Part shown: in pieces, positions 9,761 through 31,422 of the stretch | Position numbering within the stretch: position 1 is the first letter of the stretch | Layout: each line of letters starts with the position of its first letter | Assembly (NCBI GenBank): GCA_030065775.1 | Contig: JASJDL010000010.1 | Span: forward strand, 1 to 33,492 | DNA length: 33,492 nt | DNA from: Flavobacteriaceae bacterium | Lineage (GTDB): Bacteria > Bacteroidota > Bacteroidia > Flavobacteriales > Flavobacteriaceae | Reading direction: 5' to 3' | Position numbers and translations under genes: made by a program | The notes under the pieces: generated by a model | What the model was told of the DNA's origin: nothing | Seen by the model: only the letters and a program-made list of their open reading frames with translations | The model's database searches: none

Positions 9761-11614
9761 TTATTCGACCGTCACCGATTTTGCTAGATTTCTGGGCTGA
9801 TCTACATTACAACCGCGCATTACAGCGATATGATATGATAATAACTGAAGAGGAATCGTAGTCAACAATGGTGTTAATGCCTCCTCCGTTTCGGGTATTT
9901 CTATGACATGATCTGCAATTTCTTTCACCTGCGTATCTCCCTCTGTAACAACCGCAATAATCTGACCTTTACGCGACTTGATCTCTTGAATATTACTTAC
10001 AACCTTTTCATAATGGCCTCTTTTGGTGGCAATTACCACTATCGGCATATTTTCATCGATTAATGCAATCGGCCCGTGTTTCATTTCCGCAGCCGGATAG
10101 CCTTCTGCATGGATATAAGAAATTTCCTTTAACTTTAAAGCACCTTCGAGTGCCACAGGGAAATTGAACCCTCTTCCTAGATACAAGAAATTAGCGGCAT
10201 CTTTATAAATACTTGAGATGTATTTTACATGCTCATCTATTTTCAACAGTTCTTCTACTTTTTTCGGAATCAATTCCAATTCCTGTAAATGCATGCGGTA
10301 GTCTGAGCTAGACATGGTTCCCTTTGCTCTTGACAATCGAAGTGCAATTAAGGTTAATACCGTGATTTGCGTTGTAAATGCTTTTGTGGACGCTACGCCT
10401 ATTTCAGGTCCGGCATGCGTATATGCACCAGCATCTGTTTCCCGTGCAATAGACGATCCAACAACATTACAGACACCAAAGACAAACGCTCCTTTAGATT
10501 TAGCCAATTTGATCGCTGCAAGCGTATCGGCTGTTTCACCCGACTGTGAAATGGCTATCACGATGTCTTTTTCAGTTATGATAGGATTGCGATATCTGAA
10601 TTCTGAAGCATACTCGACCTCAACAGGTACTCTGGCAAAATCCTCAAAAATATATTCAGCCACTAGGCCTGCGTGCCATGAGGTTCCACAGGCAACAATA
10701 ATAATGCGATCAGCATTTAAGAATTTCTTCATATTATCTTCTACACCCGCCATTTTAATGATCGCCTGCTTGAGCAATAAGCGACCTCTATACGTATCCA
10801 CTATCGCTCTTGGTTGCTCATGGATTTCCTTTAACATAAAATGCTCATAACCTCCCTTTTCAATCTGCTCCAAATTCATTTGTAGTTCTTGAATATCAGG
10901 AGTTACCAGGGAATCATCCTGAATCTTTCTGATTTTTACATCTTTGCCTAGACGAATTATGGCCATTTCCTCATCTTCTAAGTATACGGCATCTTTTGTG
11001 TATTCAATAAAAGGTGAAGCATCAGAAGCGACAAAGTATTCTGATTTATCTTTTCCCAGTCCAATGGCAATTGGACTTCCTAAACGAGCAACAACGATTT
11101 CATTGGGCTTTGTTTTATCAAATACGGCTATCGCATAGGCTCCAATCACTTGATTCAATGCAATTTGCACCGCCTTACCGAGCATAACCCCATTCTGTTT
11201 TTTAACCTCTTCAATGAGGTTTACTAAAACTTCTGTATCCGTATCGCTTTTAAAGCTGTATCCTCGCTTGATTAATTCCTTTTTAATAGTATCGTAGTTT
11301 TCTATGATACCATTATGAATTATTACCAAATCTCCTGATTGTGATACATGCGGATGCGCATTAACATCATTCGGAACACCATGTGTAGCCCAACGTGTAT
11401 GACCAATTCCTAAATTACCCTCGGTGGTAATTTCTTTTTCTACCCGTTCTAAGAGATCACTTACTTTTCCTTTGGTCTTCGAAAGTTTAAGGTTATCGCC
11501 GTCATACAACGCAATACCGGCACTATCGTACCCTCTGTATTCGAGGCGTTGAAGCCCGTTAATGATTATGGGATAAGCTTCCCGATGCCCCACATAACAA
11601 GTAATTCCACACAT
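9761..11614 (-). CDS. glmS: Glutamine-fructose-6-phosphate aminotransferase (isomerizing)
   Basis: This enzyme makes glucosamine 6-phosphate from fructose 6-phosphate and glutamine, the first step to UDP-GlcNAc, peptidoglycan and LPS. The product is 617 aa, a normal length. The N-terminal glutaminase domain starts MCGITCYVG with nucleophile Cys2. Two SIS sugar-isomerase domains follow, with SQSGETADT, the segment EGYPAAEMKHGPIALID, and the conserved C-terminus PRNLAKSVTVE. It is the last gene of an operon with the DUF4270 lipoprotein and the GT5-like protein, 16 nt after the former. It ends directly against pth, so any terminator would have to lie inside the pth coding region. Confidence 0.98.
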   Translation of the reverse strand: MCGITCYVGHREAYPIIINGLQRLEYRGYDSAGIALYDGDNLKLSKTKGKVSDLLERVEKEITTEGNLGIGHTRWATHGVPNDVNAHPHVSQSGDLVIIHNGIIENYDTIKKELIKRGYSFKSDTDTEVLVNLIEEVKKQNGVMLGKAVQIALNQVIGAYAIAVFDKTKPNEIVVARLGSPIAIGLGKDKSEYFVASDASPFIEYTKDAVYLEDEEMAIIRLGKDVKIRKIQDDSLVTPDIQELQMNLEQIEKGGYEHFMLKEIHEQPRAIVDTYRGRLLLKQAIIKMAGVEDNMKKFLNADRIIIVACGTSWHAGLVAEYIFEDFARVPVEVEYASEFRYRNPIITEKDIVIAISQSGETADTLAAIKLAKSKGAFVFGVCNVVGSSIARETDAGAYTHAGPEIGVASTKAFTTQITVLTLIALRLSRAKGTMSSSDYRMHLQELELIPKKVEELLKIDEHVKYISSIYKDAANFLYLGRGFNFPVALEGALKLKEISYIHAEGYPAAEMKHGPIALIDENMPIVVIATKRGHYEKVVSNIQEIKSRKGQIIAVVTEGDTQVKEIADHVIEIPETEEALTPLLTTIPLQLLSYHIAVMRGCNVDQPRNLAKSVTVE

Positions 11615-11630: not shown

Positions 11631-13199
11631 TTATTCCGGTGTTTTGGTATAGTAGATTCTCAACTTAAGTCTTCTATCAAAATCTTGATCATTTTCATCA
11701 AAGTTATTACCTTTTATAACAACACTTTGAGCATTCCAGCTAAAGTTTTTTACTATAGTATCAACAATACTTACAGGTGCTTCAGTAGGATGATACATTT
11801 TGATCGCAAGTTTATACAATTCCAATGGATCATCATTCTTTAAGACTTCTGAAATATAATCTGTTATAAAGAATCTGTAGAAGTAGTCTTCTGGGTCGTC
11901 ATCCTCATTTGTAATTAAATTTCCGTCAACACCAATGGGAGCCTCGGTTATATGGTCAAGAATTGAAACACCTTGCTCAGCGTTGTATAAGTATAACCTA
12001 TTTGGCAACCGTGATGCTTCCGGATCGTCTAAATACAACTCTAAAACCGCACCATTAATTAACCATCCTTCTTGTCTAATTCTATTCAAACTGTCAAGGT
12101 CAATTCCGTCAAAAAGTTTTAATTCCACAATAGAACCCTGAGCACCCTGTACAAAAAGTTTGCTATGGCCATTTATGGAATCAGGCGCATTGAATTGAGC
12201 TAGTAATTCTGTAGCTGAAGAGTAATCCCTGTTATACGTTGCGGCCCTAATCCCAGATAAGGGAAATACCACGGTCTGTTTAGTTTTTACCGGAACATTT
12301 ACATCATCAGTATCGCCATCACCATTAAGATCCACTGTTGTCTCGTCAGTCAAAACCTCATTCGTATAATAAATCGATATGTTGGCATCGTTCATTGAAA
12401 GGAACATTAGAGATCCCAGATCAGACTGAGGTTCAATAATTATACCTCTGAAATAATTCGAAAAGAGCTCAGGTGACTCTGCTTCTGCTTCGGTGATTTC
12501 ATCGATAAATATTCGCTTAAACTCATCTGAATCCAAACCCAATTTAACAGACGGATTCCTTGCTTCCTTTAGTATTGTATCAATTCGCTGCTCATTTTCA
12601 AAAAAACTTCTTGTCACATAAAGTACCGTATCATTAGCATCAGGTTCGAAGCTTTCAGCATAGAGTTGCTCACCCTTTGTGTAAGATTCATTCGAATAGT
12701 ATAGCTTGTTCCTAGTGGGATCTTGAGGGTCGAGGGTATTCAAAAAAGTCGTGAGTCTATTGACTTCTAATTGATAAGATGTGTCGGCATCTCCGAAAAT
12801 TGAATCTAGTGTAAAATTCGGTGTACCGTCTTCATTATTTTCTTGCCTGGTAGCAAAATAAGGTATATCTAATATTACGGTATCTATAACCGGGTTAAGG
12901 CCAAAGTCAATTCCACCTACCGGTAGACCGAGCTGAGAAATGAAAGCTGATCTAAGAATTCCGAAATCATCATCATTCAAAACACCAATACCATATATGG
13001 GTAGGCCATCAACCCTCGATGAATCTACGTTCTTCGAATAGGCAACAACTTCAAAATCTTGAAATTCAGTATCAAACAGATTATTATTAACAATATTTAC
13101 ACCGATATTCTCGAAATCTTTCTCACAGGAAATTACGCCGAAAAAGACTACACAAAAAACAAGCAAATACTTTGCACTGTTTATAATTTTATTAGTCAT
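11631..13199 (-). CDS. DUF4270-family lipoprotein
   Basis: The product is 522 aa from ATG 13199; the frame extends two codons upstream to a TTG. The N-terminus MTNKIINSAKYLLVFCVVFF leads to the lipobox GVISC. Downstream are the recognisable DUF4270 features: NNNLFDTEFQDFEVVAYS, VDGLPIYGIGVLNDDDFG, and a long beta-rich, acidic extracytoplasmic domain with an Asp-rich loop near the middle (DLNGDGDTDD). The family is common in Bacteroidota envelopes and has no established function. It lies between the GT5-like gene and glmS on the same strand with short gaps. This suggests a link to cell-envelope sugar metabolism, but that is only a context argument. Confidence 0.85.
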   Translation of the reverse strand: MTNKIINSAKYLLVFCVVFFGVISCEKDFENIGVNIVNNNLFDTEFQDFEVVAYSKNVDSSRVDGLPIYGIGVLNDDDFGILRSAFISQLGLPVGGIDFGLNPVIDTVILDIPYFATRQENNEDGTPNFTLDSIFGDADTSYQLEVNRLTTFLNTLDPQDPTRNKLYYSNESYTKGEQLYAESFEPDANDTVLYVTRSFFENEQRIDTILKEARNPSVKLGLDSDEFKRIFIDEITEAEAESPELFSNYFRGIIIEPQSDLGSLMFLSMNDANISIYYTNEVLTDETTVDLNGDGDTDDVNVPVKTKQTVVFPLSGIRAATYNRDYSSATELLAQFNAPDSINGHSKLFVQGAQGSIVELKLFDGIDLDSLNRIRQEGWLINGAVLELYLDDPEASRLPNRLYLYNAEQGVSILDHITEAPIGVDGNLITNEDDDPEDYFYRFFITDYISEVLKNDDPLELYKLAIKMYHPTEAPVSIVDTIVKNFSWNAQSVVIKGNNFDENDQDFDRRLKLRIYYTKTPE

Positions 13200-13227
13200 A
13201 AACAAATAGTAATATTTAAATAATCAA

Positions 13228-14034
13228 TTATAAGACTTTGGTTAGGTAAAAATCGGAATAGGCCTCTGTGAAATCATCAACAGGCTGGTATTCTAATACT
13301 GGGGTTTCAGAAGATTCGATATGCTCTAAAATCTCTTTTGGCAGCTTTTCGCTTCCTTTGATAACAGCATCAGAATTTTCAATCGCAATTTTTAAAAGGT
13401 TAGTATGATTCGCCTTAGTTAATGATTTTAATTTTTCTTCAGAAATAGAGTCAAATTTAATTTTCGTGATCATTTCCTCACCCAATGAGCCTTTAAAATC
13501 ATTATTATAGATAGAGGTAACTATTTTACTTTCGGCAAAAAGAGGATCATTTTTATAATACTCTCTAAGGTACAAAGGCAGTAAAGAGGCCATCCATCCA
13601 TGCACATGAATAATATCAGGTGCCCAATTCAATTTTTTCACCGTTTCCACAACACCCTTGGCAAAGAAAATCGCTCGTTCATCGTTGTCAGGAAATAAAT
13701 TTCCTTCTTCATCAGTATAAAGTGCTTTGCGCTTAAAGTACTCTTCATTGTCTATAAAGTAAACCTGCATTCTCTCCTTTGGAATCGAAGCCACTTTAAT
13801 GATTAATGGCATATCCATATCATTGATTATGAGGTTCATACCCGACAATCGTATCACTTCATGTAGCTGATGTCTTCGCTCATTAATGACACCAAATCTC
13901 GGCATAAAAATACGTGTCTGTGCACCATTGTTATGCATTTTTCTAGCTACTTCAAAAGACATGTTAGCAGTTTCATTCTCAGGCAAGTAGGGTACAACTT
14001 CAGAAGAAACGTACAGAATTCTCTTATCTTTCAT
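13228..14034 (-). CDS. Glycogen/starch synthase-like protein, N-terminal GT5 domain only
   Basis: The 268-aa product resembles the N-terminal Rossmann domain of GT5 glycogen synthase: ILYVSSEVVPY, RIFMPRFGVINER, YFIDNEEYF, NDERAIFFAKG, DIIHVHGWMASLLPLYLR and IYNNDFKG. The C-terminal half of the enzyme, which binds the nucleotide sugar, is absent; full enzymes are about 470-500 aa. The usual K-x-G-G-L loop after the first strand is replaced by a PENETANMS segment. It is therefore unlikely to make glucan. The frame is intact with no decay, and the C-terminus (residues 200-268) is a distinct short tail, so this looks like a retained short protein and not a pseudogene. It is the first gene of the DUF4270-glmS operon and divergent from panC. 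Confidence 0.85.
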   Translation of the reverse strand: MKDKRILYVSSEVVPYLPENETANMSFEVARKMHNNGAQTRIFMPRFGVINERRHQLHEVIRLSGMNLIINDMDMPLIIKVASIPKERMQVYFIDNEEYFKRKALYTDEEGNLFPDNDERAIFFAKGVVETVKKLNWAPDIIHVHGWMASLLPLYLREYYKNDPLFAESKIVTSIYNNDFKGSLGEEMITKIKFDSISEEKLKSLTKANHTNLLKIAIENSDAVIKGSEKLPKEILEHIESSETPVLEYQPVDDFTEAYSDFYLTKVL

Positions 14035-14058
14035 AAATCCATCTTAGTTACGAATATG

Positions 14059-14066
14059 CAAAATTA
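14059..14066 (-). promoter_or_regulatory. Putative -7 element for the GT5-like operon
   Basis: Minus-strand TAATTTTG fits TAnnTTTG, 24 nt before the ATG at 14034, in the 102-bp divergent gap with panC. No TTG box was found at a suitable distance. Confidence 0.35.
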
Positions 14067-14136
14067 CAAAATTTTATGCAGATTTAGACCTAAAAACAGT
14101 AAGTTTACCCGCTTTTAACTCATAATTAAGAACTTC

Positions 14137-14979
14137 ATGCGGGTTTTTCATTCTATCCTATCATTACAGAAATATCTCAACAAAAAACGCACCAAAAATT
14201 CGATCGGATTCGTTCCTACTATGGGGGCACTTCATGACGGACATCTGGCCCTTGTTAAAAGAGCGATTAAAGAGAATGATATAGTTGTAGTGAGTATTTT
14301 TGTGAACCCAACCCAATTTGATAAAAGCGAAGACCTTAAAAAATATCCCCGAACACTTGATACCGATGTCAATCTGTTAAAAACGACGAAGCATACTATA
14401 GTTTTTGCACCCTCTGTTGAAGAAATGTACCAACAAAACATCAAAGCCAAAAAGTTTCATTTTGATGGATTAGAATATGAAATGGAAGGAAAACATCGCA
14501 ATGGCCATTTTGACGGTGTCGGCACCATAGTAAAACGTCTTTTTGAGATTGTACAACCTCACAAAGCCTATTTCGGTGAAAAGGATTTTCAACAATTGCA
14601 GATTATCAAAAAATTGGTCGATAAATACCAACTTCCTGTAAAAATAATTGGATGTAAAATTCATCGCGAAGCAGATGGTTTGGCCATGAGCTCACGAAAT
14701 ACACGACTCACAAAAAAACAACGAGATGCCGCTCCTTTTATCTATCAAATACTCAAAGAAACTAAAAATAGGTTCAAAAAAGAATCGATCCCAACTATAG
14801 AGCAATGGGTAACTAAACAATACAAGAATAACCTTGAACTTCAGTTGGAGTATTTTGAAATTGCCAATAGTAAGACTTTAAAACCTGCACGGCGAAAACT
14901 AAAAAAAAATAAATATAGGGCATTTGTAGCGGCCTATGCAGGAAACATTCGTTTGATCGATAACATCGCTTTAAATTAA
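14137..14979 (+). CDS. panC: Pantothenate synthetase
   Basis: This enzyme joins pantoate and beta-alanine with ATP to give pantothenate, leading to coenzyme A. The product is 280 aa, normal for the family. Visible motifs are FVPTMGALHDGHLALV (nucleotidyltransferase HxGH), VSIFVNPTQFD, RNGHFDGVGTIVKRLF, FGEKDFQQLQIIKKL and MSSRNTRLT. It is divergent from the GT5-like operon across 102 bp. The adjacent panD that often follows in related genomes is not found here. A hairpin (ACCCGC 14107-14112 with GCGGGT 14139-14144) overlaps the start codon, which may be chance. Confidence 0.97.
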   Translation: MRVFHSILSLQKYLNKKRTKNSIGFVPTMGALHDGHLALVKRAIKENDIVVVSIFVNPTQFDKSEDLKKYPRTLDTDVNLLKTTKHTIVFAPSVEEMYQQNIKAKKFHFDGLEYEMEGKHRNGHFDGVGTIVKRLFEIVQPHKAYFGEKDFQQLQIIKKLVDKYQLPVKIIGCKIHREADGLAMSSRNTRLTKKQRDAAPFIYQILKETKNRFKKESIPTIEQWVTKQYKNNLELQLEYFEIANSKTLKPARRKLKKNKYRAFVAAYAGNIRLIDNIALN

Positions 14980-18119: not shown

Positions 18120-18172
18120 TTGTTAAAATTTTGTTAACTTAGTCTTAGGTTATAACCATCAAATTGCTGATC

Positions 18173-20314
18173 TTGAAAAAACTATTTCTCGTTCTCATTA
18201 TAATCTTCGCTTATTCATGTAACCCTGATGACTCTGCAGATAACATGGAGAAAACATATACACTCATACCAGACGAAAAGTTTGAGCAGATTTTAGTAGA
18301 TCAAGGCTTGGATAGCGATCAAATGGTTAATGGGCAGATGCTCTATACTGATGCTCAAAAAATTTCGGATTTAATAGTGATATTCGGCATAAATAAAGAG
18401 CTCGATTTAGAAGGAATTCAAGATTTTGTCAATCTAAAAACTCTTTACATCTATGGTGGAGCAATCAGCATTCTTGATTTAGATGATAACATAAATCTTA
18501 TTGATGTAAAATTAGAGCAAACTATCATTGAGAATCATTTGATACTTCCTTTAGAGTCAGACCTGAAAAATCTTACTCTTGAACTAGCCAGATTAAAACT
18601 CTTAAATCTACGTGAAAATGTCAAATTAGACAGTCTAACTGTTCGAAGTAACTCTTTGGAACAATTAAATATCTCCAATAGTGTAAACTTAAGTTCTTTA
18701 CATCTTACCAGCACCACCAGCGATTTTGTGGCATTAGATCTGAGCAGCAATGTCAATTTAAAAACTGCCAAATTATCAGTCGCAGGCATTACCTCTCTTG
18801 ATATAAGCAATCTGACGAAATTAAAAAATTTGAACACCATTAATTGCCCAAAGCTTATTTGTGCTAAAATTTTTGAAAACCAAGACATTTCTGACTTTAA
18901 GTATGGATATCATACAACATTTACCACAAATTGTAACAACTTGCCTGAAAGAGAATATACCACGATAACCAATGAGGAATTTGAAAGAACTTTAATTATT
19001 AATGATATCGATACCGAAGACCAATTGGACGGGAAGGTGCTTACAAAATCTCTGGAAAACGCAAAAGGCCTTTATATTGGTGGACGGTTTACAACATTAG
19101 ATAGTTTAGATGGTCTGGAAACGCTCAAAAACATAGAATGGATTTATTTCTATGATCTATTCTTAGGTAATAATCTAAGACTTGAGAATTACGACTTTAG
19201 TCAAAATACGAAGTTAAAGCATTTCACTATTAGAGGGCTCGATCAGCCTCATGGCGCTACGGGTATTGATTTCGTTGCAGATTTATCGCAGCTAAAAAAA
19301 TTAGAAACTCTTGAACTTACTTACGCTAGTTTTAGCAACCTTGATTTTAGGGAATGCCCCGACTTGAAGGTGGTAAAAGTTGTGAACGATTTATCTTTGG
19401 ATTATGACTTTACGGGAAACCCTGAACTGGAGCAGATTATAATAGAAAGGGCGAATTCAGTCGATATATCACAAAATTTAAAACTAAAAGAATTAGAACT
19501 AAAATCATCTTTAATTCCCAGTCTGGATCTCAGCAATAATTCAAATATAGAATCCATTAGTTTGGATGGATTGACCATAACCTCATTAGAAATCAATAAC
19601 AAACCGCAATTAAATGAGCTTGTTTTAAAAAACCTCAACAATTTAGCCACACCCGATATAAAGAACAATACCAGCCTGAAAACATATCATGTTGAAGACT
19701 GCAACTTAATAGGAGAAGTTGATGTCAGCTCAAATAGCGGTTTAGAAAGATTGGTTGTTAAGAACAATCAGAATATAAATTCTCTTAATATTGAACAAAA
19801 CACAAATTTAAGGGATTTGCTGGTCTGGAATACGCGGGTTAGCAGACTTGACTTAATGAACAATAGTTTACTGGAGTACCTTTCCATAAGGCATAATCCA
19901 ATGAGTGAGATAGATATTTCTAATAATTTATCACTATCAGTGCTTTCGGTGCAACATTCAGACATTTCTAATTTAGATATATCAGATCACGACAATCTCA
20001 GAGGTTTATATGTAAGACACACAAATATTAACAGCTTAGATTTACGTGATAAGACTCGTATGGAATTGATGCTGTTAAACCATAATAAATTGACGTCAGT
20101 TGATCTGACCAATATGCGTATTTTAAGAGAATTGTACATCAATAACAACGAATTATCACAATTAGATCTTAGCAATAATTTATCGCTTATTGCAGCAAAT
20201 GTGTATGATAACCCTGACTTAGATTGTATTAAAATAGCCGAAATACAAAAAATTTCATTGGTTTCAAGAGTCAATAGAAGTGAGTATCAAACATTATCTA
20301 CAAATTGTTTATGA
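18173..20314 (+). CDS. Large lipoprotein with two diverged leucine-rich-repeat modules
   Basis: The product is 713 aa from TTG 18173 (alternative TTG 18164); no ATG gives the signal peptide MKKLFLVLIIIFAYSC (lipobox Cys16). Most of the protein is irregular leucine-rich repeats of about 20-23 residues with cores such as LDLSNN, LDISNN and LNISN. Two modules are visible. Each opens with a related segment (TLIPDEKFEQILVDQGLDS near residue 30; TITNEEFERTLIINDIDT near 264). Each closes with C-x-K/I-I plus about 20 residues plus NC (near 230-254 and at the C-terminus). No C-terminal secretion-system sorting domain is seen. A surface adhesion or binding role is plausible but unproven. Confidence 0.85.
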   Translation: MKKLFLVLIIIFAYSCNPDDSADNMEKTYTLIPDEKFEQILVDQGLDSDQMVNGQMLYTDAQKISDLIVIFGINKELDLEGIQDFVNLKTLYIYGGAISILDLDDNINLIDVKLEQTIIENHLILPLESDLKNLTLELARLKLLNLRENVKLDSLTVRSNSLEQLNISNSVNLSSLHLTSTTSDFVALDLSSNVNLKTAKLSVAGITSLDISNLTKLKNLNTINCPKLICAKIFENQDISDFKYGYHTTFTTNCNNLPEREYTTITNEEFERTLIINDIDTEDQLDGKVLTKSLENAKGLYIGGRFTTLDSLDGLETLKNIEWIYFYDLFLGNNLRLENYDFSQNTKLKHFTIRGLDQPHGATGIDFVADLSQLKKLETLELTYASFSNLDFRECPDLKVVKVVNDLSLDYDFTGNPELEQIIIERANSVDISQNLKLKELELKSSLIPSLDLSNNSNIESISLDGLTITSLEINNKPQLNELVLKNLNNLATPDIKNNTSLKTYHVEDCNLIGEVDVSSNSGLERLVVKNNQNINSLNIEQNTNLRDLLVWNTRVSRLDLMNNSLLEYLSIRHNPMSEIDISNNLSLSVLSVQHSDISNLDISDHDNLRGLYVRHTNINSLDLRDKTRMELMLLNHNKLTSVDLTNMRILRELYINNNELSQLDLSNNLSLIAANVYDNPDLDCIKIAEIQKISLVSRVNRSEYQTLSTNCL

Positions 20315-20330
20315 ATACGTCACCTAGGAA

Positions 20331-21107
20331 TCATTCTTTTTGATCTAGAATTGCTTTATTTAGATATGAAGCTATTATACCGCCGAGCATTGGCGATAAG
20401 ATATACACGGTTAAAAAACTAAAGCGTACAGCGGGAAATGCAGCTGATTTCCAACCGGCAAAATAGGCCACAATCCTGGGGGAAAAATCGCGTGCAGGAT
20501 TGAATCCTCCCTGGGTAAAAGGTGCAATCAGACATATTAAAATCGTAACCGTCAGGCCAATCAATAATGGAGTCGCATTGTTGAGCTGCTCAGGTTTTTC
20601 TGTCACTCTGAAGATCACAAATACCAATAGAAAGGTGCCCAGGCCTTCGAGAAAACACGCCTGAAGATATGATACTGAGAATTTTTCCGCGAAAGTGGGA
20701 TTCGGGAAATATTCACCAAACATCATCGCTGAGCGATATGAATACGTGCTCCCTCTTAGAATTCCGTTGACTTCTTCATAATTTGCAATGGCAGTATTAA
20801 ATATCAGAAATAAAAGCAGTCCACCGACCAAAGCACCTAGAAACTGGGCTATCAGATAAAAAGGTAATTTTTTAGGTCTAAGTTGTTTGGCAAAGACCAT
20901 CGCAACACTGACTGCAGGATTTAGATGAGCCGGACATATATTTCTAACCGCAAAAATGGCCATAGCCACTCCTAATCCAAAAATAAGCGCTACACCCAAA
21001 AGGTTGAGGGCTCCGAACACTACAGAAACAGCTACAGCGCCACATCCAAAAAAAACAAGCAGTAAAGTCCCTAGGAATTCCCCTACGTATTCTTTAAAAA
21101 AAATCAT
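20331..21107 (-). CDS. aqpS: Aquaglyceroporin (MIP family), AqpS-like arsenite channel
   Basis: The product is a 258-aa MIP channel with six membrane helices and two half-helix NPA motifs, HLNPAVS and FNPARDFSPR. The Asp after the second NPA marks the glycerol-permeable subgroup, whose members often conduct arsenite. It starts 2 nt after the arsC stop and is the last gene of the ars cluster. The cluster encodes no ArsB or Acr3 pump. Known precedent: in Sinorhizobium meliloti, AqpS lets arsenite made by ArsC leave the cell down its gradient. The channel family is certain; the arsenite role is inferred from neighbours. Confidence 0.92.
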   Translation of the reverse strand: MIFFKEYVGEFLGTLLLVFFGCGAVAVSVVFGALNLLGVALIFGLGVAMAIFAVRNICPAHLNPAVSVAMVFAKQLRPKKLPFYLIAQFLGALVGGLLLFLIFNTAIANYEEVNGILRGSTYSYRSAMMFGEYFPNPTFAEKFSVSYLQACFLEGLGTFLLVFVIFRVTEKPEQLNNATPLLIGLTVTILICLIAPFTQGGFNPARDFSPRIVAYFAGWKSAAFPAVRFSFLTVYILSPMLGGIIASYLNKAILDQKE

Positions 21108-21109
21108 TA

Positions 21110-21748
21110 TTAAATAATGCTGGAGAAGATATAATACATTTCTGTAGCAATTTGCTGGCTACGTTCGTGGTATTTTTCCGCTTGTTGAGGTGTATCATCG
21201 AATGCTTTCGGGTCTTCATATGTAATGGTTACTCGTGTTTCGGCTCCCGATATAACTGGACAATTTTCATCAGCATCAGAACATGTTAGTATTGCCGCAA
21301 AATCAGATTTTGGGTTTAACGCATGATCAAACGTTTTTGAAAAACCGATCACAGGATATATACTTTCCCCAAATTTAATGACATACACCGGATTGTCACC
21401 CTGAGAAATTTTGGTGATCTCAAAACCAGAATTTTCTAATGTCTCAACCACTTTTGGAAATAAGGCAGTGGCTTCAGTTCCGCCGGAGTAACAAAAGACG
21501 TTACGAACACCAAAATACCGGGCCATAGTCTGTGCCCAAACCTGAGATAAATGACTTCTCCGAGAGTTGTGAGTGCAAATAAAATTCAATCGAATATCTT
21601 TTTTAAAGTCTACCCTATTCTGAATATAATGAACCAAAGGTTTTAATAGTACTTTACGGTCTTCGCTTAAGCTTAAGGGATCTAAATTCGATATAGTATT
21701 TTTGAGCTCACCAAAAAGCTTCGTCTTATTTTTCTTTTTAATCTTCAC
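21110..21748 (-). CDS. arsC: Arsenate reductase, thioredoxin-type (low-MW phosphatase fold)
   Basis: The enzyme reduces arsenate to arsenite. The phosphatase-like loop FICTHNSRRSHLSQVW carries the Cys-x5-Arg nucleophile. CSDADENCP supplies the two further cysteines (spaced C-x6-C) used in the disulfide relay of pI258-type ArsC, and AFDDTP is the conserved tail motif. I chose GTG 21748 because it gives VKIKKKNKTKLFGELK, near the expected family N-terminus, 20 nt after the DUF6428 stop. The frame also reaches ATG 21796, but that would add a hydrophobic stretch overlapping DUF6428 by 28 nt. TTG 21778 or 21775 are further options. Confidence 0.9.
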   Translation of the reverse strand: MKIKKKNKTKLFGELKNTISNLDPLSLSEDRKVLLKPLVHYIQNRVDFKKDIRLNFICTHNSRRSHLSQVWAQTMARYFGVRNVFCYSGGTEATALFPKVVETLENSGFEITKISQGDNPVYVIKFGESIYPVIGFSKTFDHALNPKSDFAAILTCSDADENCPVISGAETRVTITYEDPKAFDDTPQQAEKYHERSQQIATEMYYIFSSII

Positions 21749-21768
21749 AAACGAATTATTACGTATTG

Positions 21769-22257
21769 TTAACAACAAGCAGACCCAGAGCAGCATGTGT
21801 CATCTGCGGTAACGAGCGTTTGACTTGGCGCTCCAAAAGCGTCCTTGGCTTTACAATCTGTTTGAGAAACAAATAACTGTATTATTGTTTTATCTGAAGT
21901 TAATTTTACGTTATGAATTTCCAGATTTGCTTTGTGAAACAGCTCATTACTATATTCAAAAAACACCTGTGACCCTTTATCAATTTTGTGAATTTTATCC
22001 ACTTTTTCAAGGATTGATAAGGCCTTCTTTGAAGTCATATATTCGACTTTATCAATTTCTTTCGGACTTTCCCAAAGCTGAATGATGGTTTCATTCCAAT
22101 CATCCGATCTGCCTCCGCAATCTACCGATTTTATAGTTGTATTCTTTACTTCGGTGATATGATAATTTGCACCAACATAGGTGCCATCTTTGTACTCAAA
22201 TAGCAATTCCTTTTCGCCGTGTTCTTTTAAAATGTTTAAAAATTCTTGTGTTTTCAT
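21769..22257 (-). CDS. DUF6428-family protein with Cys-rich C-terminus
   Basis: The product is a 162-aa soluble protein resembling the DUF6428 family, often found beside arsC in Bacteroidota. Two similar halves are suggested: HITEVKNTTIKSVDCGG with ETIIQLWES in the first, and LEIHNVKLTSDKTIIQLFVS in the second. The last residues are TCCSGSACC, giving four cysteines in two vicinal pairs (155/156 and 161/162). Vicinal thiols bind trivalent arsenic well, so sensing, buffering or handing arsenite to another protein is possible. That is inference; no function is established to my knowledge. It sits between the membrane protein (12-nt gap) and arsC. Confidence 0.8.
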   Translation of the reverse strand: MKTQEFLNILKEHGEKELLFEYKDGTYVGANYHITEVKNTTIKSVDCGGRSDDWNETIIQLWESPKEIDKVEYMTSKKALSILEKVDKIHKIDKGSQVFFEYSNELFHKANLEIHNVKLTSDKTIIQLFVSQTDCKAKDAFGAPSQTLVTADDTCCSGSACC

Positions 22258-22269
22258 ACTTATTATTTT

Positions 22270-22839
22270 TTAACAACAAACTATTTTTTTTCGCAATCGG
22301 TTCCAGGTGTCTTTTCCAGGAGGAAAAAGCAATAAAACATGAATTAAAGCCAAAATAATCGCACCTGGAATTATATTCACAGCAACAAAACTAAAAATAT
22401 CCCTGCCAAGGGAATCAGTTAGTTGTGTATTCATTAGAATCTTGTTTTCACTAACGGTCAGTTTAGTGCCTATTATCAGAATTATAGATGCAAAATGAAA
22501 TGCATTCGCAAATAGATGTATGATATACTCCCATTTAGGTAGACCTCCCATAAAAGCTCTACTATCCGCTTCTGAATAGGCATCTAACGCAAGTACAACC
22601 AAATCTATTATAACGATAACAGCGCCTATCACAAGGCTTACTTCATTATTCTCAATAAACAAAAGCCATACAATTACAGGAAATAACATGGCTCTCAAGG
22701 CGTGAATTTTATGTTCGAAGAGACTATCTTTTCTATTAAACAATTTATATTTAAAAATATGAAGATAAAAGCCATCATAGGTAGCCAAAATCATAAATAG
22801 TACGAGACAAAAAGTGCCTAGAAAATATAGCGTTTCCAT
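22270..22839 (-). CDS. Unknown polytopic membrane protein of the ars cluster
   Basis: I do not recognise this family. The 189-aa product has about five hydrophobic segments: residues 5-25, 50-64, 68-86, 108-127 and 152-173. Several histidines lie in or next to them (YLHIF, EHKIHALRAM, EYIIHLFANAFHF, LIHVLLLF), and an acidic loop DAYSEADSRAF separates the third and fourth segments. The C-terminus is RLRKKIVCC, ending in a Cys pair. It lies between the ArsN1-like gene (9-nt gap) and the DUF6428 gene (12-nt gap). It is not ArsB or Acr3 by any visible motif. An accessory transporter or membrane redox protein is possible. Confidence 0.7.
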   Translation of the reverse strand: METLYFLGTFCLVLFMILATYDGFYLHIFKYKLFNRKDSLFEHKIHALRAMLFPVIVWLLFIENNEVSLVIGAVIVIIDLVVLALDAYSEADSRAFMGGLPKWEYIIHLFANAFHFASIILIIGTKLTVSENKILMNTQLTDSLGRDIFSFVAVNIIPGAIILALIHVLLLFPPGKDTWNRLRKKIVCC

Positions 22840-22848
22840 AATTTATAT

Positions 22849-23346
22849 TTAATCTATTCCTACCGTTTTACTTCTTCGTTCCATTAAAACATTATTATAC
22901 CAGGTATCCCCTAACTTTCCTATTCTTTCGCGATAGCCTATTGTTCTGAAACCTAGTTTTTTATGTAAATTAATGCTTGCAATATTTTGAGGAAAGATAC
23001 CGGATTGTAAGGTCCAAATACTTTCTTGTTCGCTTTCGGTTATTAAATGTTCGAGCAATTTAGAACCGATTCCTTTTCCTTGAAATCTGGTATGTACATA
23101 AACACTTACTTCTGCCACGCCACCATACACACAACGGCTTGATACAGGTGATAAGGCCGCCCAGCCTACCAATTGATTAGCTATCCAGGCTGCCAGCCTG
23201 CACATCTTTAAATGTGAGGCATTCCACTGGTCCCACGATGGAACTTCAGTCTCAAAAGTGGCCACTCCGGTTGCAATTCCATCTTTGTAAATCGACGAAA
23301 CATTAGACCAGTCTTCAGCGGTTATATGTTTAATTTCTATACTCAA
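22849..23346 (-). CDS. arsN1: GNAT acetyltransferase, phosphinothricin/arsinothricin type (ArsN1-like)
   Basis: The product is 165 aa from TTG 23346 (TTG AGT ATA); no ATG is available near the N-terminus. It matches the phosphinothricin acetyltransferase subgroup: SIYKDGIATGVATFETEVPS, CRLAAWIANQLVGWAALSP, the acetyl-CoA loop FQGKGIGSKLLEHLI, and LQSGIFPQNIASINLHKKLGF. In ars operons, members named ArsN1 acetylate and detoxify arsinothricin, an arsenic-containing antibiotic. The sequence cannot separate that substrate from phosphinothricin; the arsenic neighbours favour arsinothricin. A perfect 7+7 inverted repeat lies directly upstream, between arsR and this gene. Confidence 0.85.
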   Translation of the reverse strand: MSIEIKHITAEDWSNVSSIYKDGIATGVATFETEVPSWDQWNASHLKMCRLAAWIANQLVGWAALSPVSSRCVYGGVAEVSVYVHTRFQGKGIGSKLLEHLITESEQESIWTLQSGIFPQNIASINLHKKLGFRTIGYRERIGKLGDTWYNNVLMERRSKTVGID

Positions 23347-23362
23347 ATCGTAATTTTACGAT
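23347..23362. repeat. Inverted repeat ATCGTAA-TT-TTACGAT between arsR and arsN1
   Basis: The perfect 7-bp arms at 23347-23353 and 23356-23362 are separated by 2 nt and end against the TTG start of the acetyltransferase gene. The core TACGAT recurs upstream of arsR at 23729-23734, next to the ars -7 element. This may be a second binding site for ArsR or another repressor. Confidence 0.5.
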
Positions 23363-23380
23363 AATTATTTTCAAATTTTT

Positions 23381-23713
23381 TTAGCAACACTGTATTCCTC
23401 CGAAATCTTGTTTAAACAATGTGTCAAAAAGCTCCTTAGCCTTTTGCCAACTCTCCTGATGAATGCAATAGCGTATTTTAGGTGGATTCACCTCACCCTC
23501 TATCAAACCGGCATCTTTTAGCTCTTTTAAATGTTGCGAAATCGTTGATTGTGCCAATGGCAATACATCGACGAGATCGCCTGTGTAGCAACAACTTTGA
23601 TTGCTCAAATGTTTTAAAATCACCAATCGAACAGGATGCCCTAATGCCTTGGCGTAACGTGCCAGTTCTTTTGACTCCTCTGAATACTCAATATGCTGTA
23701 AAGTTTTATTCAT
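23381..23713 (-). CDS. arsR: ArsR-family transcriptional repressor
   Basis: The product is a 110-aa winged-helix repressor and the first gene of the ars cluster. It shows ALGHPVRLVILKHLSNQSCC, the recognition-helix segment PLAQSTISQHLKELKDAGLI, and a beta-wing with KIRYCIH. Candidate arsenite-sensing cysteines are Cys41-Cys42, which precede the recognition helix in place of the usual ELCVCDL, plus Cys83 and the terminal Cys109-Cys110. It should repress its own operon until arsenite binds. A consensus promoter and a 12-bp palindrome lie just upstream, and the start codon is only 9 nt from the -7 element. Confidence 0.93.
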   Translation of the reverse strand: MNKTLQHIEYSEESKELARYAKALGHPVRLVILKHLSNQSCCYTGDLVDVLPLAQSTISQHLKELKDAGLIEGEVNPPKIRYCIHQESWQKAKELFDTLFKQDFGGIQCC

Positions 23714-28326: not shown

Positions 28327-28357
28327 TTGAAGTGCAAAACTAATAATTCTATCTTTG
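28327..28357 (+). promoter_or_regulatory. Promoter of mvaD
   Basis: TTG at 28327-28329, a 20-nt spacer, then TATCTTTG at 28350-28357 match the consensus. Transcription would start near 28364, which excludes the TTG at 28355 as start codon and favours the TTG at 28373. Confidence 0.62.
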
Positions 28358-28362
28358 CACAA
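28335..28362 (-). promoter_or_regulatory. Promoter of the 78-aa gene
   Basis: Minus-strand TTG (28362-28360), a 17-nt spacer and TAGTTTTG (28342-28335). It occupies the same DNA as the mvaD promoter on the other strand. Confidence 0.6.
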
Positions 28363-28372
28363 AACCAAAATT

Positions 28373-29479
28373 TTGGACGGAAACGAATTTATCTACAAGG
28401 CCCCTGATACTAAAATTTTATCCGATGGAAGCTTCACTTGGAAAGCCCCAAGCAATATCGCCCTCGTAAAGTATTGGGGAAAGCATGGTATGCAATTACC
28501 TAAAAACACCTCGATAAGTTTTACCTTAGATGCTTGCCATACCATCACTACTTTAGAATTTAGAAATCATACTAAAGTTGGTTCAATATCGCATAAAAAT
28601 GAACTCAATTTTAACGTCTATGTCGACGATCAAAGACAAGATGATTTTAAACCTAAGATTGCTGCTTTTCTAACAAGGATAAAGAACTACGTTCCGTTTC
28701 TAGATGATTACGACTTGAATATTAAAACCCATAATTCTTTTCCTCATAGCAGTGGTATAGCGTCATCCGCGAGTGGTATGGCTGCCCTGGCTCTATGTAT
28801 TATGAGTATGGAAAAGGAATTAAATCCATCAATGTCAGATGAGTTTTTTTACCAAAAAGCTTCCTGGCTTGCACGTTTAGGATCAGGCAGTGCTGCACGA
28901 AGTATTAAAGGTAGCATAGTTGTTTGGGGTGAACATCCTGGGCTCAAAGGAAGTTCCGATTTATTTGGAGTTGAATTTCCCCATGAAGTACATACCAATT
29001 TTCACAACTTTCATGACACCATCCTTTTAGTAGATAAGGGTCAAAAACAGGTATCAAGTACTGTTGGCCATAATTTAATGCATGAACATCCTTTCGCGGG
29101 GCAACGTTTTGATCAAGCGAACGAGAACATTAGTAAACTGAGTGCTATCCTACAAAATGGCGACCTTAAAGCGTTTGTAGCTCTTGTTGAGAGTGAAGCG
29201 TTGACTTTACATGCCATGATGATGACCAGTAATCCGTACTTCATCCTCATGAAACCCAACACGCTTTCGATTATCAATAAGATCTGGGATTTCCGCAAAA
29301 AGACCGGTGCGACTATTTGTTTTACATTAGATGCCGGGGCCAATGTACACGTGCTTTATCCTGAGAAAGAGAAGAAATCTATTCACAAATTTATAACGAC
29401 AGAATTACTTCAATTTTGCCAAAACAGGCACTATATCAGTGATCGTATTGGTGCTGGTGCTAAAAATTTGACCAAATAA
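28373..29479 (+). CDS. mvaD: Diphosphomevalonate decarboxylase
   Basis: This enzyme converts mevalonate 5-diphosphate to isopentenyl diphosphate with ATP. From TTG 28373 it has 368 aa. No ATG lies before the conserved FTWKAPSNIALVKYWGKHG, and an upstream TTG (28355) overlaps the -7 promoter element. Family features are PKNTSISFTLDACHTITTL, the ATP loop HSSGIASSASGMAALAL, RLGSGSAARSIKGSIVVWGE, and the C-terminal LDAGANVHVLYP carrying the catalytic-region Asp. Mevalonate kinase follows after 67 nt behind its own promoter. Identity is certain; the start codon is likely but not certain. Confidence 0.96.
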   Translation: MDGNEFIYKAPDTKILSDGSFTWKAPSNIALVKYWGKHGMQLPKNTSISFTLDACHTITTLEFRNHTKVGSISHKNELNFNVYVDDQRQDDFKPKIAAFLTRIKNYVPFLDDYDLNIKTHNSFPHSSGIASSASGMAALALCIMSMEKELNPSMSDEFFYQKASWLARLGSGSAARSIKGSIVVWGEHPGLKGSSDLFGVEFPHEVHTNFHNFHDTILLVDKGQKQVSSTVGHNLMHEHPFAGQRFDQANENISKLSAILQNGDLKAFVALVESEALTLHAMMMTSNPYFILMKPNTLSIINKIWDFRKKTGATICFTLDAGANVHVLYPEKEKKSIHKFITTELLQFCQNRHYISDRIGAGAKNLTK

Positions 29480-29513
29480 TTTGACTGAAATTGTGAATTT
29501 ACCGTTATATTTG
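29480..29513 (+). promoter_or_regulatory. Putative promoter of mevalonate kinase
   Basis: TTTG at 29480-29483, a 22-nt spacer and TATATTTG at 29506-29513, 33 nt before the ATG at 29547. The spacer is slightly long; the -7 element is a perfect match. Confidence 0.5.
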
Positions 29514-29546
29514 TGTGAATTTTATTGAGATAGCAAGAAAAATTCC

Positions 29547-30473
29547 ATGAAGGGGCCCTTATTTTACGCAAAAATCTTATTGTTCGGTGAATATGGAATC
29601 ATTAAAGATTCTAAAGGTTTAGCTATACCATATAATTCCTATCAGGGTGCTTTAAAGACAAATGAAAACCCGAGCGAAGCTTCTAAAAAATCTAATAAGA
29701 ACTTAGCAGAATTCCAGAACTATTTAAGAGGTCTTTCCAAAGAGTTGGTACAGTTTCGATTCGATGAACTCGAACGCGATATCAATGCGGGTATGTATTT
29801 TGACTCCAGTATTCCCCAGGGTTACGGTGTTGGTAGTTCAGGTGCCTTGGTCGCTGCTATCTACGACAAATATGCCAACGATAAGATCACTGTTCTGGAA
29901 AATCTTACAAGAGAAAAATTATTAAAACTGAAAGATATTTTCGCTGCTATGGAGTCCTTTTTTCATGGCAAAAGTTCTGGTCTTGATCCGCTAAATAGCT
30001 ATCTCAGCCTGCCAATACTTATCAATTCAAAAGACAACCTTGAACCTACCGGTATTCCCTCCCAAAAAGAAGGAAAGGGTGCTGTATTTTTGCTAGATTC
30101 TCAGCAAGTTGGTGAAACGGGCCCTATGGTGAGTATTTTCATGAATAAAATGAAAAATGAAGGTTTTAGAAAAATGATCGATGAAGATTTTGCCAGGTAT
30201 ACCGATGCTTGTATCGACGACTTCTTACACGGCAATGTGAAATCACTATTGGGCAATGTCAAACAATTATCTAAGGTGGTCTTGGCCAATTTTAAGCCAA
30301 TGATCCCAAAAGCATTTCATAAGGTCTGGCAAAAAGGTATTGAAACCAATGATTATTACCTGAAATTATGCGGTTCAGGCGGTGGTGGTTATATTCTTGG
30401 CTTTACACATGATTATCAGAAAACCAAAGAGCTTCTGAAAGACTACAAATTAGAGTTGGTGTATACTTTGTGA
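29547..30473 (+). CDS. mvk: Mevalonate kinase (GHMP family)
   Basis: The product is a 308-aa GHMP kinase that phosphorylates mevalonate. Motif 1 is FYAKILLFGEYGII, the ATP loop is PQGYGVGSSGALVAAIYDKY, ESFFHGKSSGLDPLNSYLS contains the catalytic Asp context, and motif 3 near the C-terminus is LCGSGGGGYILGF. The position between mvaD and a prenyltransferase gene supports mevalonate over other GHMP substrates. It stops 16 nt before the prenyltransferase ATG, so these genes are likely co-transcribed. Confidence 0.9.
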   Translation: MKGPLFYAKILLFGEYGIIKDSKGLAIPYNSYQGALKTNENPSEASKKSNKNLAEFQNYLRGLSKELVQFRFDELERDINAGMYFDSSIPQGYGVGSSGALVAAIYDKYANDKITVLENLTREKLLKLKDIFAAMESFFHGKSSGLDPLNSYLSLPILINSKDNLEPTGIPSQKEGKGAVFLLDSQQVGETGPMVSIFMNKMKNEGFRKMIDEDFARYTDACIDDFLHGNVKSLLGNVKQLSKVVLANFKPMIPKAFHKVWQKGIETNDYYLKLCGSGGGGYILGFTHDYQKTKELLKDYKLELVYTL

Positions 30474-30489
30474 TGCAGAATCCATTTTT

Positions 30490-31422
30490 ATGGATAACTT
30501 TGATGGCGTTGTGAAGCACGTTTCCAAAAAAAAATATTCTATCTTTTATAAGTTTTTCAGCCTGCTTTCTGTAGTGCGAGGATACAATATTTTGATTATT
30601 GTTCTGGCGCAGTATTTAGCCTCTTTATTTATTTTTTCACCTGAAAGCTCTTTAAAAGATGTAGTTTTTGATTCAGACTTATTTTTAATTGTGTTTGCGA
30701 CTGTTTGTGTGATCGCTGCCGGTTATATCATTAATAATTTTTATGATGCTGAAAAAGATCGCATTAACCGTCCGTTAAAAGCCAAAATTGATAGTATTGT
30801 CAATCAAAAGACGAAGCTCAACATCTATTTCTTCCTAAATTTTTCTGGTTTTGTTTTAGGATTTATTATTTCCTGGAAGGCTGCTTTGTTTTTTGCGGTT
30901 TATATTTTCTTAATCTGGTTTTATTCCCACAAGTTGAGCAAATATCCCTTAACAGGATTAATTTCCTCCACAGTACTGGCGTTGTTGCCCTTTTTTATAA
31001 TCTTTGTTTATTATCGCAATTTTTCAAAGGTTATTTTTGCGCATGCCCTATTTTTAGGAATTATTTTATTGATCAAAGAACTTCTAAAAGAATTAGAAAA
31101 TATCAAAGGTGACTTGTTACAAGACTATAAAACGGTACCCGTAGCTTATGGTGATAATTTTACAAAGGGATTGATCAGTTTTTTGGCAATTCTGGTTGCG
31201 GTTCCCGCTTATTTTTTATGGAAATATCCCGAGATTGGTTACATGAAATACTACTTTTATGGTACTGGAATTATCCTGGCGATCATGACATTTCAATTGT
31301 GGATAGGTAATTCAAAAAAGAACTATGTCTTTTTGCACAATGTTATAAAGCTTGTTTTGATTGCGGGTGTTTTTAGCTTAGTTTTAATCGATACCTCGGT
31401 TATCATTCAACGAATTTTATAA
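30490..31422 (+). CDS. UbiA-family prenyltransferase (geranylgeranylglycerol-phosphate geranylgeranyltransferase-like)
   Basis: The product is a 310-aa membrane prenyltransferase with about eight or nine hydrophobic segments. The first Asp-rich motif is NNFYDAEKDRINRP (N-x-x-x-D-x-x-x-D). The second lies in ELENIKGDLLQDYKTVPVAYG, with Asp residues that bind the second Mg2+-diphosphate contact. This pattern resembles the subgroup annotated as geranylgeranylglycerol-phosphate geranylgeranyltransferase, which makes archaeal-type ether lipids. In bacteria the acceptor is not established, so homogentisate- or quinone-type acceptors remain possible. It lies 16 nt after mvk and one base before the nitrilase gene. 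The isoprenoid neighbours support the prenyl donor. Confidence 0.85.
   Translation: MDNFDGVVKHVSKKKYSIFYKFFSLLSVVRGYNILIIVLAQYLASLFIFSPESSLKDVVFDSDLFLIVFATVCVIAAGYIINNFYDAEKDRINRPLKAKIDSIVNQKTKLNIYFFLNFSGFVLGFIISWKAALFFAVYIFLIWFYSHKLSKYPLTGLISSTVLALLPFFIIFVYYRNFSKVIFAHALFLGIILLIKELLKELENIKGDLLQDYKTVPVAYGDNFTKGLISFLAILVAVPAYFLWKYPEIGYMKYYFYGTGIILAIMTFQLWIGNSKKNYVFLHNVIKLVLIAGVFSLVLIDTSVIIQRIL

Follow-up and report, generated by a model that had tools for sequence, protein, structure and literature searches.

A stand-alone, catalytically eroded GT5 domain beside bamH in Bacteroidota and its possible role in envelope biogenesis

Glycogen synthases (GlgA) are, in general terms, proteins of about 480 residues made of two Rossmann domains. 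In the stretch of flavobacterial DNA analysed here (33,492 nucleotides, henceforth the window), an open reading frame that resembles just the first of these domains opens an operon that ends in glmS. This raises several questions: is the gene a recent truncation or a dead remnant? Is its product one part of a split enzyme? Or does half a glycosyltransferase, referred to here as GT5N, have a function of its own, and if so, is that function related to the genes that follow it?

Identity of GT5N and erosion of its active site

The GT5N gene (Table 1) is intact, with an ATG start and no internal stop, and encodes 268 residues. PF08323 (starch synthase catalytic domain) covers residues 5-238 with 185.5 bits, nothing was recognized behind residue 238, and the domain search of the 268-aa protein returned no C-terminal GT-B family match. 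The full-length GlgA models of NCBIfam align over the first ~240 of their ~480 positions and no further, scoring 179 bits against a cut-off of 754 for the best and nearest sequence model, PRK14098 (NF010698), and 128 against 328 for TIGR02095. The nearest PDB entry by sequence is 1rzu, the glycogen synthase of A. tumefaciens (E 1.1e-10), which also ranks first (E 5.6e-9) in a Foldseek search with the AlphaFold2 model of GT5N (pLDDT 80.7, pTM 0.84), the best matches being GT5 glycogen and starch synthases. GT5N thus has in common with GlgA (PF08323 plus a C-domain; TIGR02095, NF010698/PRK14098) the N-terminal GT-B Rossmann domain, a kinship seen in PF08323, in Foldseek and in the tree described below, but it lacks the second domain and the KxGG donor loop, and the residues H161 and D137 are replaced. 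All this bears out the sequence-only reading, which had described an intact protein equivalent to the first half of glycogen synthase, missing the sugar-nucleotide domain and the loop, at the head of an operon with a DUF4270 gene and glmS. Inspection of the N-terminus (MKDKRILYVSSEVVPY) revealed no signal peptide or lipobox, and the protein is predicted to be cytoplasmic.

Table 1. Coordinates of the features discussed, in window positions
Feature	Position	Strand	Basis
GT5N, 268-aa protein made of a lone N-terminal GT5 (glycogen synthase-like) domain with an eroded active site	13228..14034	-	ORF, PF08323, AF2 model, orthologs
GT5N conserved block, residues 41-103	13726..13914	-	columns at least 95% conserved, 77 short sequences
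bamH (DUF4270), encoding a surface lipoprotein of the BAM complex of Bacteroidota	11631..13205	-	PF14092, 173.5 bits
glmS, third in the cluster, for glucosamine-6-phosphate synthase	9761..11614	-	TIGR01135, 810 bits, over cut-off
panC, divergent neighbour	14137..14979	+	TIGR00018, 302 bits; kept in 50/61 Bacteroidia loci
Divergent intergenic region with Bacteroidota-type -7 element TAATTTTG	14035..14136	-	sequence

The active site was compared across 77 short forms, 11 canonical GlgA and 20 full-length forms, taking E. coli GlgA (NC_000913) as reference. The K15-x-G17-G18 loop of the E. coli enzyme, which corresponds to the donor-binding motif of GT5 enzymes (PMC6086201), aligns with P18-E-N20-E21 of GT5N. 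Among the short forms, K15 is variable, D21 and G18 are lost (the latter falling outside the common residues), and G17 is retained in a single sequence and substituted by T or S in 72; canonical GlgA keeps both glycines in 11/11. D137 persists in 16 of the 77 (G in 60; G146 in the protein of the window) and H161 in nine (Y176 in the window), and the columns of R300, K305 and E377 are deleted in all of them, as is all sequence from N246 on. Canonical and full-length forms retain K15, D137, H161 and E377 almost throughout, the full-length ones with K at position 15 in 16 cases and R in four. The lost active-site residues rule out a catalytic glycogen synthase, and GT5N is best read as an ancient, presumably non-catalytic pseudoenzyme. 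Sensing of ADP-glucose, one of the roles proposed earlier, is unlikely as well, because GT5N has neither the donor loop nor the nucleotide-binding C-domain and glycogen genes are dispensable for its retention.

The short forms nonetheless have a strongly conserved block of their own between residues 41 and 103, comprising R41, P45, G48, R53, L57, H58, V60, R62, L63, K80, V81, A82, Q90, Y92, F93 and D95. This block is nearly absent from canonical GlgA; several of its residues are common to full-length FCB forms, and the full-length relatives from other classes of the phylum carry the pattern FGxIxERRxxLHxVxRL as GT5N does. It is also the least confident stretch of the AF2 model. Across 59 diverse sequences, 18 columns of GT5N are invariant, and dN/dS is 0.02-0.03 for those Flavobacteriaceae pairs that show at least one nonsynonymous change and 0.07-0.11 for symbionts with 600-kb genomes; the gene is under strong purifying selection. 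A functionless remnant that persists thanks to the bamH promoter would account for the lost active site and for the leading position of GT5N, the 5' end of which would have to be kept because it heads the bamH operon. However, such a low dN/dS (about 0.02), the invariant columns and the intact state of GT5N in symbionts that have lost bamH make a remnant hardly credible, and the selection evidence contradicts it.

Does GT5N act, then, as half of a split enzyme? The Alg13/Alg14 transferase is a precedent for a stand-alone GT-B half, and GT5N could by analogy be an acceptor half pairing with a separately encoded donor half, in keeping with the N-domain fold retained in the model and with the block 41-103, which could form an interface. 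The donor half, however, was not found: the C-domain matches listed for ten genomes include no convincing stand-alone one, since the frames that contain them are, with a single 101-aa exception, at least 300 aa long, as expected of complete GT4 enzymes; a 345-kb symbiont genome, G437, has no GT5/GT4-type C-domain whatsoever, and a 490-kb one, G024, has only that of BshA (MurG lies outside this exclusion). The N-half itself has lost two of its own residues, H161 and D137, and this also speaks against a split glycosyltransferase, which we consider very unlikely; the partner enzyme suggested by the sequence-only reading finds no support.

Distribution, origin and gene order

GT5N is present in 147 of 149 genomes drawn across its own class, in 246 of 257 in a second draw (221/223 of the near-complete ones) and in 82 of 89 genomes across its own order (near-complete, 65/66). 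The sampled orthologs measure 248-288 aa, with identities to the window protein down to 32%. A genuine GlgA can coexist with GT5N at a separate locus, as seen in ten relatives with a second match, each of which encodes a full-length GlgA besides GT5N; in the own genome, of which the assembly is only 80% complete, no other full-length GT5 N-domain was found. At the level of the phylum, the short form is found in some classes and a form of ~490 aa in others, so that full-length orthologs occur only in other classes (the class names of the compared relatives being inferred). In a tree of 73 N-domains, built with a quick method and SH-aLRT support, the short forms constitute one clade (100) nested in full-length FCB GT5, and canonical GlgA is set apart (99). 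Because of this nesting, the parsimonious reading is that the C-domain was lost once, anciently, before Bacteroidia and related classes diverged. A recent truncation, which full-length orthologs in close relatives would have indicated, is ruled out by the near-universal orthologs of a single length and by the tree.

In the window, GT5N is followed on the same strand by bamH and then by glmS, and panC is divergent; the -7 element lies 32 nt upstream of the GT5N ATG, and the likely start of bamH is an ATG at about 13199. The label DUF4270 used for this neighbour in the earlier reading is outdated, as the family is BamH, defined in two papers of 2025 (PMC12611786, PMC12578637); the window protein clearly belongs to it and is likely an exact ortholog, with a score for the NCBIfam model BamH_fj (323.8 bits) below the equivalog cut-off of 420. 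In F. johnsoniae, BamH is Fjoh_0823, and bamH depletion constructs have been driven by the fjoh_0824 promoter (PMC12611786), whereas BamH of B. thetaiotaomicron is Bt4306 (PMC12578637) and BT_4307, the number next to BT4306, is annotated as “putative glycogen synthase” (PMC8941943). Judging from gene order, fjoh_0824 would be the GT5N ortholog.

This arrangement is conserved, as are the lengths: at 61 Bacteroidia loci, BamH is directly next to GT5N in 55 and GlmS lies within three genes in 45. Among 15 short-form loci of other classes, 14 have BamH within three genes and 14 BamG, and 12 of 20 full-length loci have each of them. Distant BamH calls were based on iterated HMMs (E < 1e-4), and BamG calls on NF053685, the cut-off of which (250) was exceeded at L150 (256.5 bits) and not reached at L168 (236.6). 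No GlmS link was seen at GT5 loci outside Bacteroidia. Chlorobia-like loci have a full-length GT5 with bamH and bamG unlinked, which matches the published finding that Chlorobiota lack BamG/H (PMC12611786). Since full-length forms are already encoded upstream of bamH and bamG, these are the oldest partners: the GT5-BamH-BamG linkage predates the truncation, and GlmS and panC joined later, only in Bacteroidia. It should be borne in mind that operon conservation is evidence of co-expression and not of a common mechanism.

Other genes recur at these loci. A GmhB-like HAD phosphatase (heptose-bisphosphatase family) adjoins GT5 in 16 of the 20 full-length loci, lying between GT5 and BamH (L146-L165, other classes), and an RfaE2-type adenylyltransferase-like gene is found near panC in many Bacteroidia loci; a link of the ancestral GT5 to ADP-heptose is possible. 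Ten loci (L044, L047, L050, L058, L068, L070, L071, L073, L074 and L085) contain an inserted DAHP-synthase-like gene of ~340 aa, which either separates bamH from glmS or immediately follows bamH.

The age of the linkage across several classes, older than the loss of the C-domain, and the O-glycosylation of both BamG and BamH (PMC12611786) would suit a GT5N that serves the BAM complex itself, through synthesis, glycosylation or assembly of these two proteins. The BamH/BamG module (PMC12611786, PMC12578637) and GT5N are indeed long-standing genomic neighbours and are both found phylum-wide. Nevertheless, GT5N is cytoplasmic by its sequence, the complex purified from F. johnsoniae consists of BamA and five proteins, none described as Fjoh_0824 (PMC12611786), and the full-length form exists in Chlorobia-like genomes with bamH and bamG unlinked. 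Moreover, symbionts devoid of BamG and BamH keep GT5N, even one with no Omp85 match (G024), and BamA presence does not follow that of GT5N. A role in the BAM complex is, in our view, rather unlikely.

Retention in reduced symbiont genomes and the likely function

Insect symbionts of 345-600 kb retain GT5N after having dropped glycogen genes, lipid A genes and, in some cases, GlmS. G024 (22% GC) encodes a GT5N of 262 aa together with murA-murG, mraY, ddl, mreB, rodA, ftsW and ftsZ; HMMs detected no BamG, BamH or GlmS, there was no Omp85 match, and BLAST with E. coli queries, which divergent genes can escape, found no lpxA/B/D or glgA/C/P. In G437, GT5N stands alongside murA-murG, mraY and ddl, and a 788-aa POTRA protein is still there; glmS, glmU, glmM, lpxA/B/D and glgA/C/P were found by search in neither of these two genomes. 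G541, the sister of G437, is without GT5N. G513 has GT5N and murC, with no GlmS and no Omp85 match, and G557 has a GT5N ORF of 252 aa with neither murC nor glmS. Some 50 genomes of one symbiont genus (500-630 kb) retain the gene, which in two of them has stop codons within or close to it, and at the loci read in this genus bamH is gone and glmS lies directly downstream of GT5N. Genomes of 200-300 kb have mostly lost it. Retention of GT5N is thus independent of GlmS, BamGH and glycogen genes. Presence or absence of GT5N and of murC coincides in 10 of 11 reduced lineages (Fisher p 0.015), compared with eight for GlmS (p 0.18) and six for BamA (p 1.0), a profile that rules out dependence on BamA; the lineages are few, and differences in genome size confound the comparison. 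As a separate observation, E. coli queries found no FtsZ, FtsI, FtsW/RodA or PBP2 in G437 (L296-L307, L314-L319), where the murein-precursor pathway is present with no visible polymerase.

These genomes also bear on the amino-sugar link proposed earlier. In one form of it, GT5N would regulate GlmS or amino-sugar flux by binding a sugar nucleotide, like GlmR/YvcK of Bacillus. This Firmicutes protein, a GlmS-stimulating regulator that binds UDP-GlcNAc (PMC7525490, PMC6171935), is a possible analogue, being a non-catalytic factor tied to GlmS and the wall, and the GlmS neighbour in Bacteroidia, kept directly downstream in 600-kb symbionts without bamH, speaks for the idea. Still, the two proteins are unrelated by sequence and fold search (convincing GT5N matches were confined to GT5/GT4 families and folds, with no YvcK-fold homology), the nucleotide-binding half of GT-B is absent, no GlmS link exists outside Bacteroidia, and G024, G437, G513 and G557 all retain GT5N in the absence of glmS. 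GlmS as defining partner is weakened in favour of the older BamH/BamG, and regulation of GlmS is unlikely.

A housekeeping role outside the envelope, such as metabolite binding, would fit the exception G557, and in each of two B. thetaiotaomicron screens a photo-affinity probe based on vitamin B12 enriched BT_4307 (log2 fold changes of 2.6 and 1.05; PMC8941943). Yet the same probe list includes abundant proteins for which no connection with B12 is known (trigger factor, aspartokinase), GT5N has no classical DxHxxG motif, and it persists in symbionts of 345-600 kb. We regard such a role as quite unlikely.

An envelope role rather than glycogen making is probable because of the envelope-gene neighbour and of the survival in tiny symbiont genomes. 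At a probability of roughly 0.4, the best explanation is that GT5N would be a non-catalytic cytoplasmic binding or scaffold factor for envelope biogenesis, with the supply of peptidoglycan precursors or amino sugars as the most likely stage, as its near-universality, lost active site, purifying selection, BamH/BamG neighbours and agreement with murC suggest. As the sequences show, a glycogen-synthase-like GT5 encoded beside bamH-bamG lost its donor-binding C-domain once, and its active site eroded, whereas another face of the protein, residues 41-103, has remained nearly invariant. The resulting protein may bind or scaffold in the cytoplasm, and its co-transcription with bamH, in Bacteroidia also with glmS, could match wall-precursor supply to outer-membrane assembly. 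A more specific version can be put forward tentatively at most: a core wall factor of Bacteroidota, required phylum-wide, in which the half GT-B would bind a murein-precursor enzyme or intermediate and co-expression with BamH, a BAM dome subunit, would match wall and outer-membrane growth. Against the precursor stage stand G557, which has GT5N and no murC, and Uzinura, whose published gene list has 'glgA' though peptidoglycan genes are absent (PMC3971599).

Previous annotations and other genes of the window

Being a single-copy gene in nearly all Bacteroidota and in reduced symbionts, GT5N likely has a core function, and the newly described BamG/BamH module is hereby linked to a cytoplasmic partner gene. 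A 2024 review mentions a conserved glycogen synthase “fragment” in one sentence, almost certainly the same family; we found no analysis there of how the family is conserved, of its gene neighbours, or of its active site and function. In the open-access literature, we found no published work on the function of GT5N, nor, in the literature, any essentiality record for its gene. The name “glycogen synthase”, under which the family is currently annotated, is misleading. BT_4307 has been interpreted as a potential glycogen synthase and used to argue that B. thetaiotaomicron stores glycogen (PMC10797578); the sequence does not support this identity, and the missing active site contradicts the storage argument.

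Elsewhere in the window, an ArsR-type regulator, a GNAT acetyltransferase, an arsenate-reductase-like protein and an aquaporin (20331-23713) have the appearance of an arsenic-handling operon, and the 716-aa product of 18164-20314 has a periodicity like that of leucine-rich repeats and matches no Pfam family. Finally, a diphosphomevalonate decarboxylase, a GHMP kinase and a UbiA prenyltransferase are consecutive at 28355-31422, forming a mevalonate-pathway cluster.
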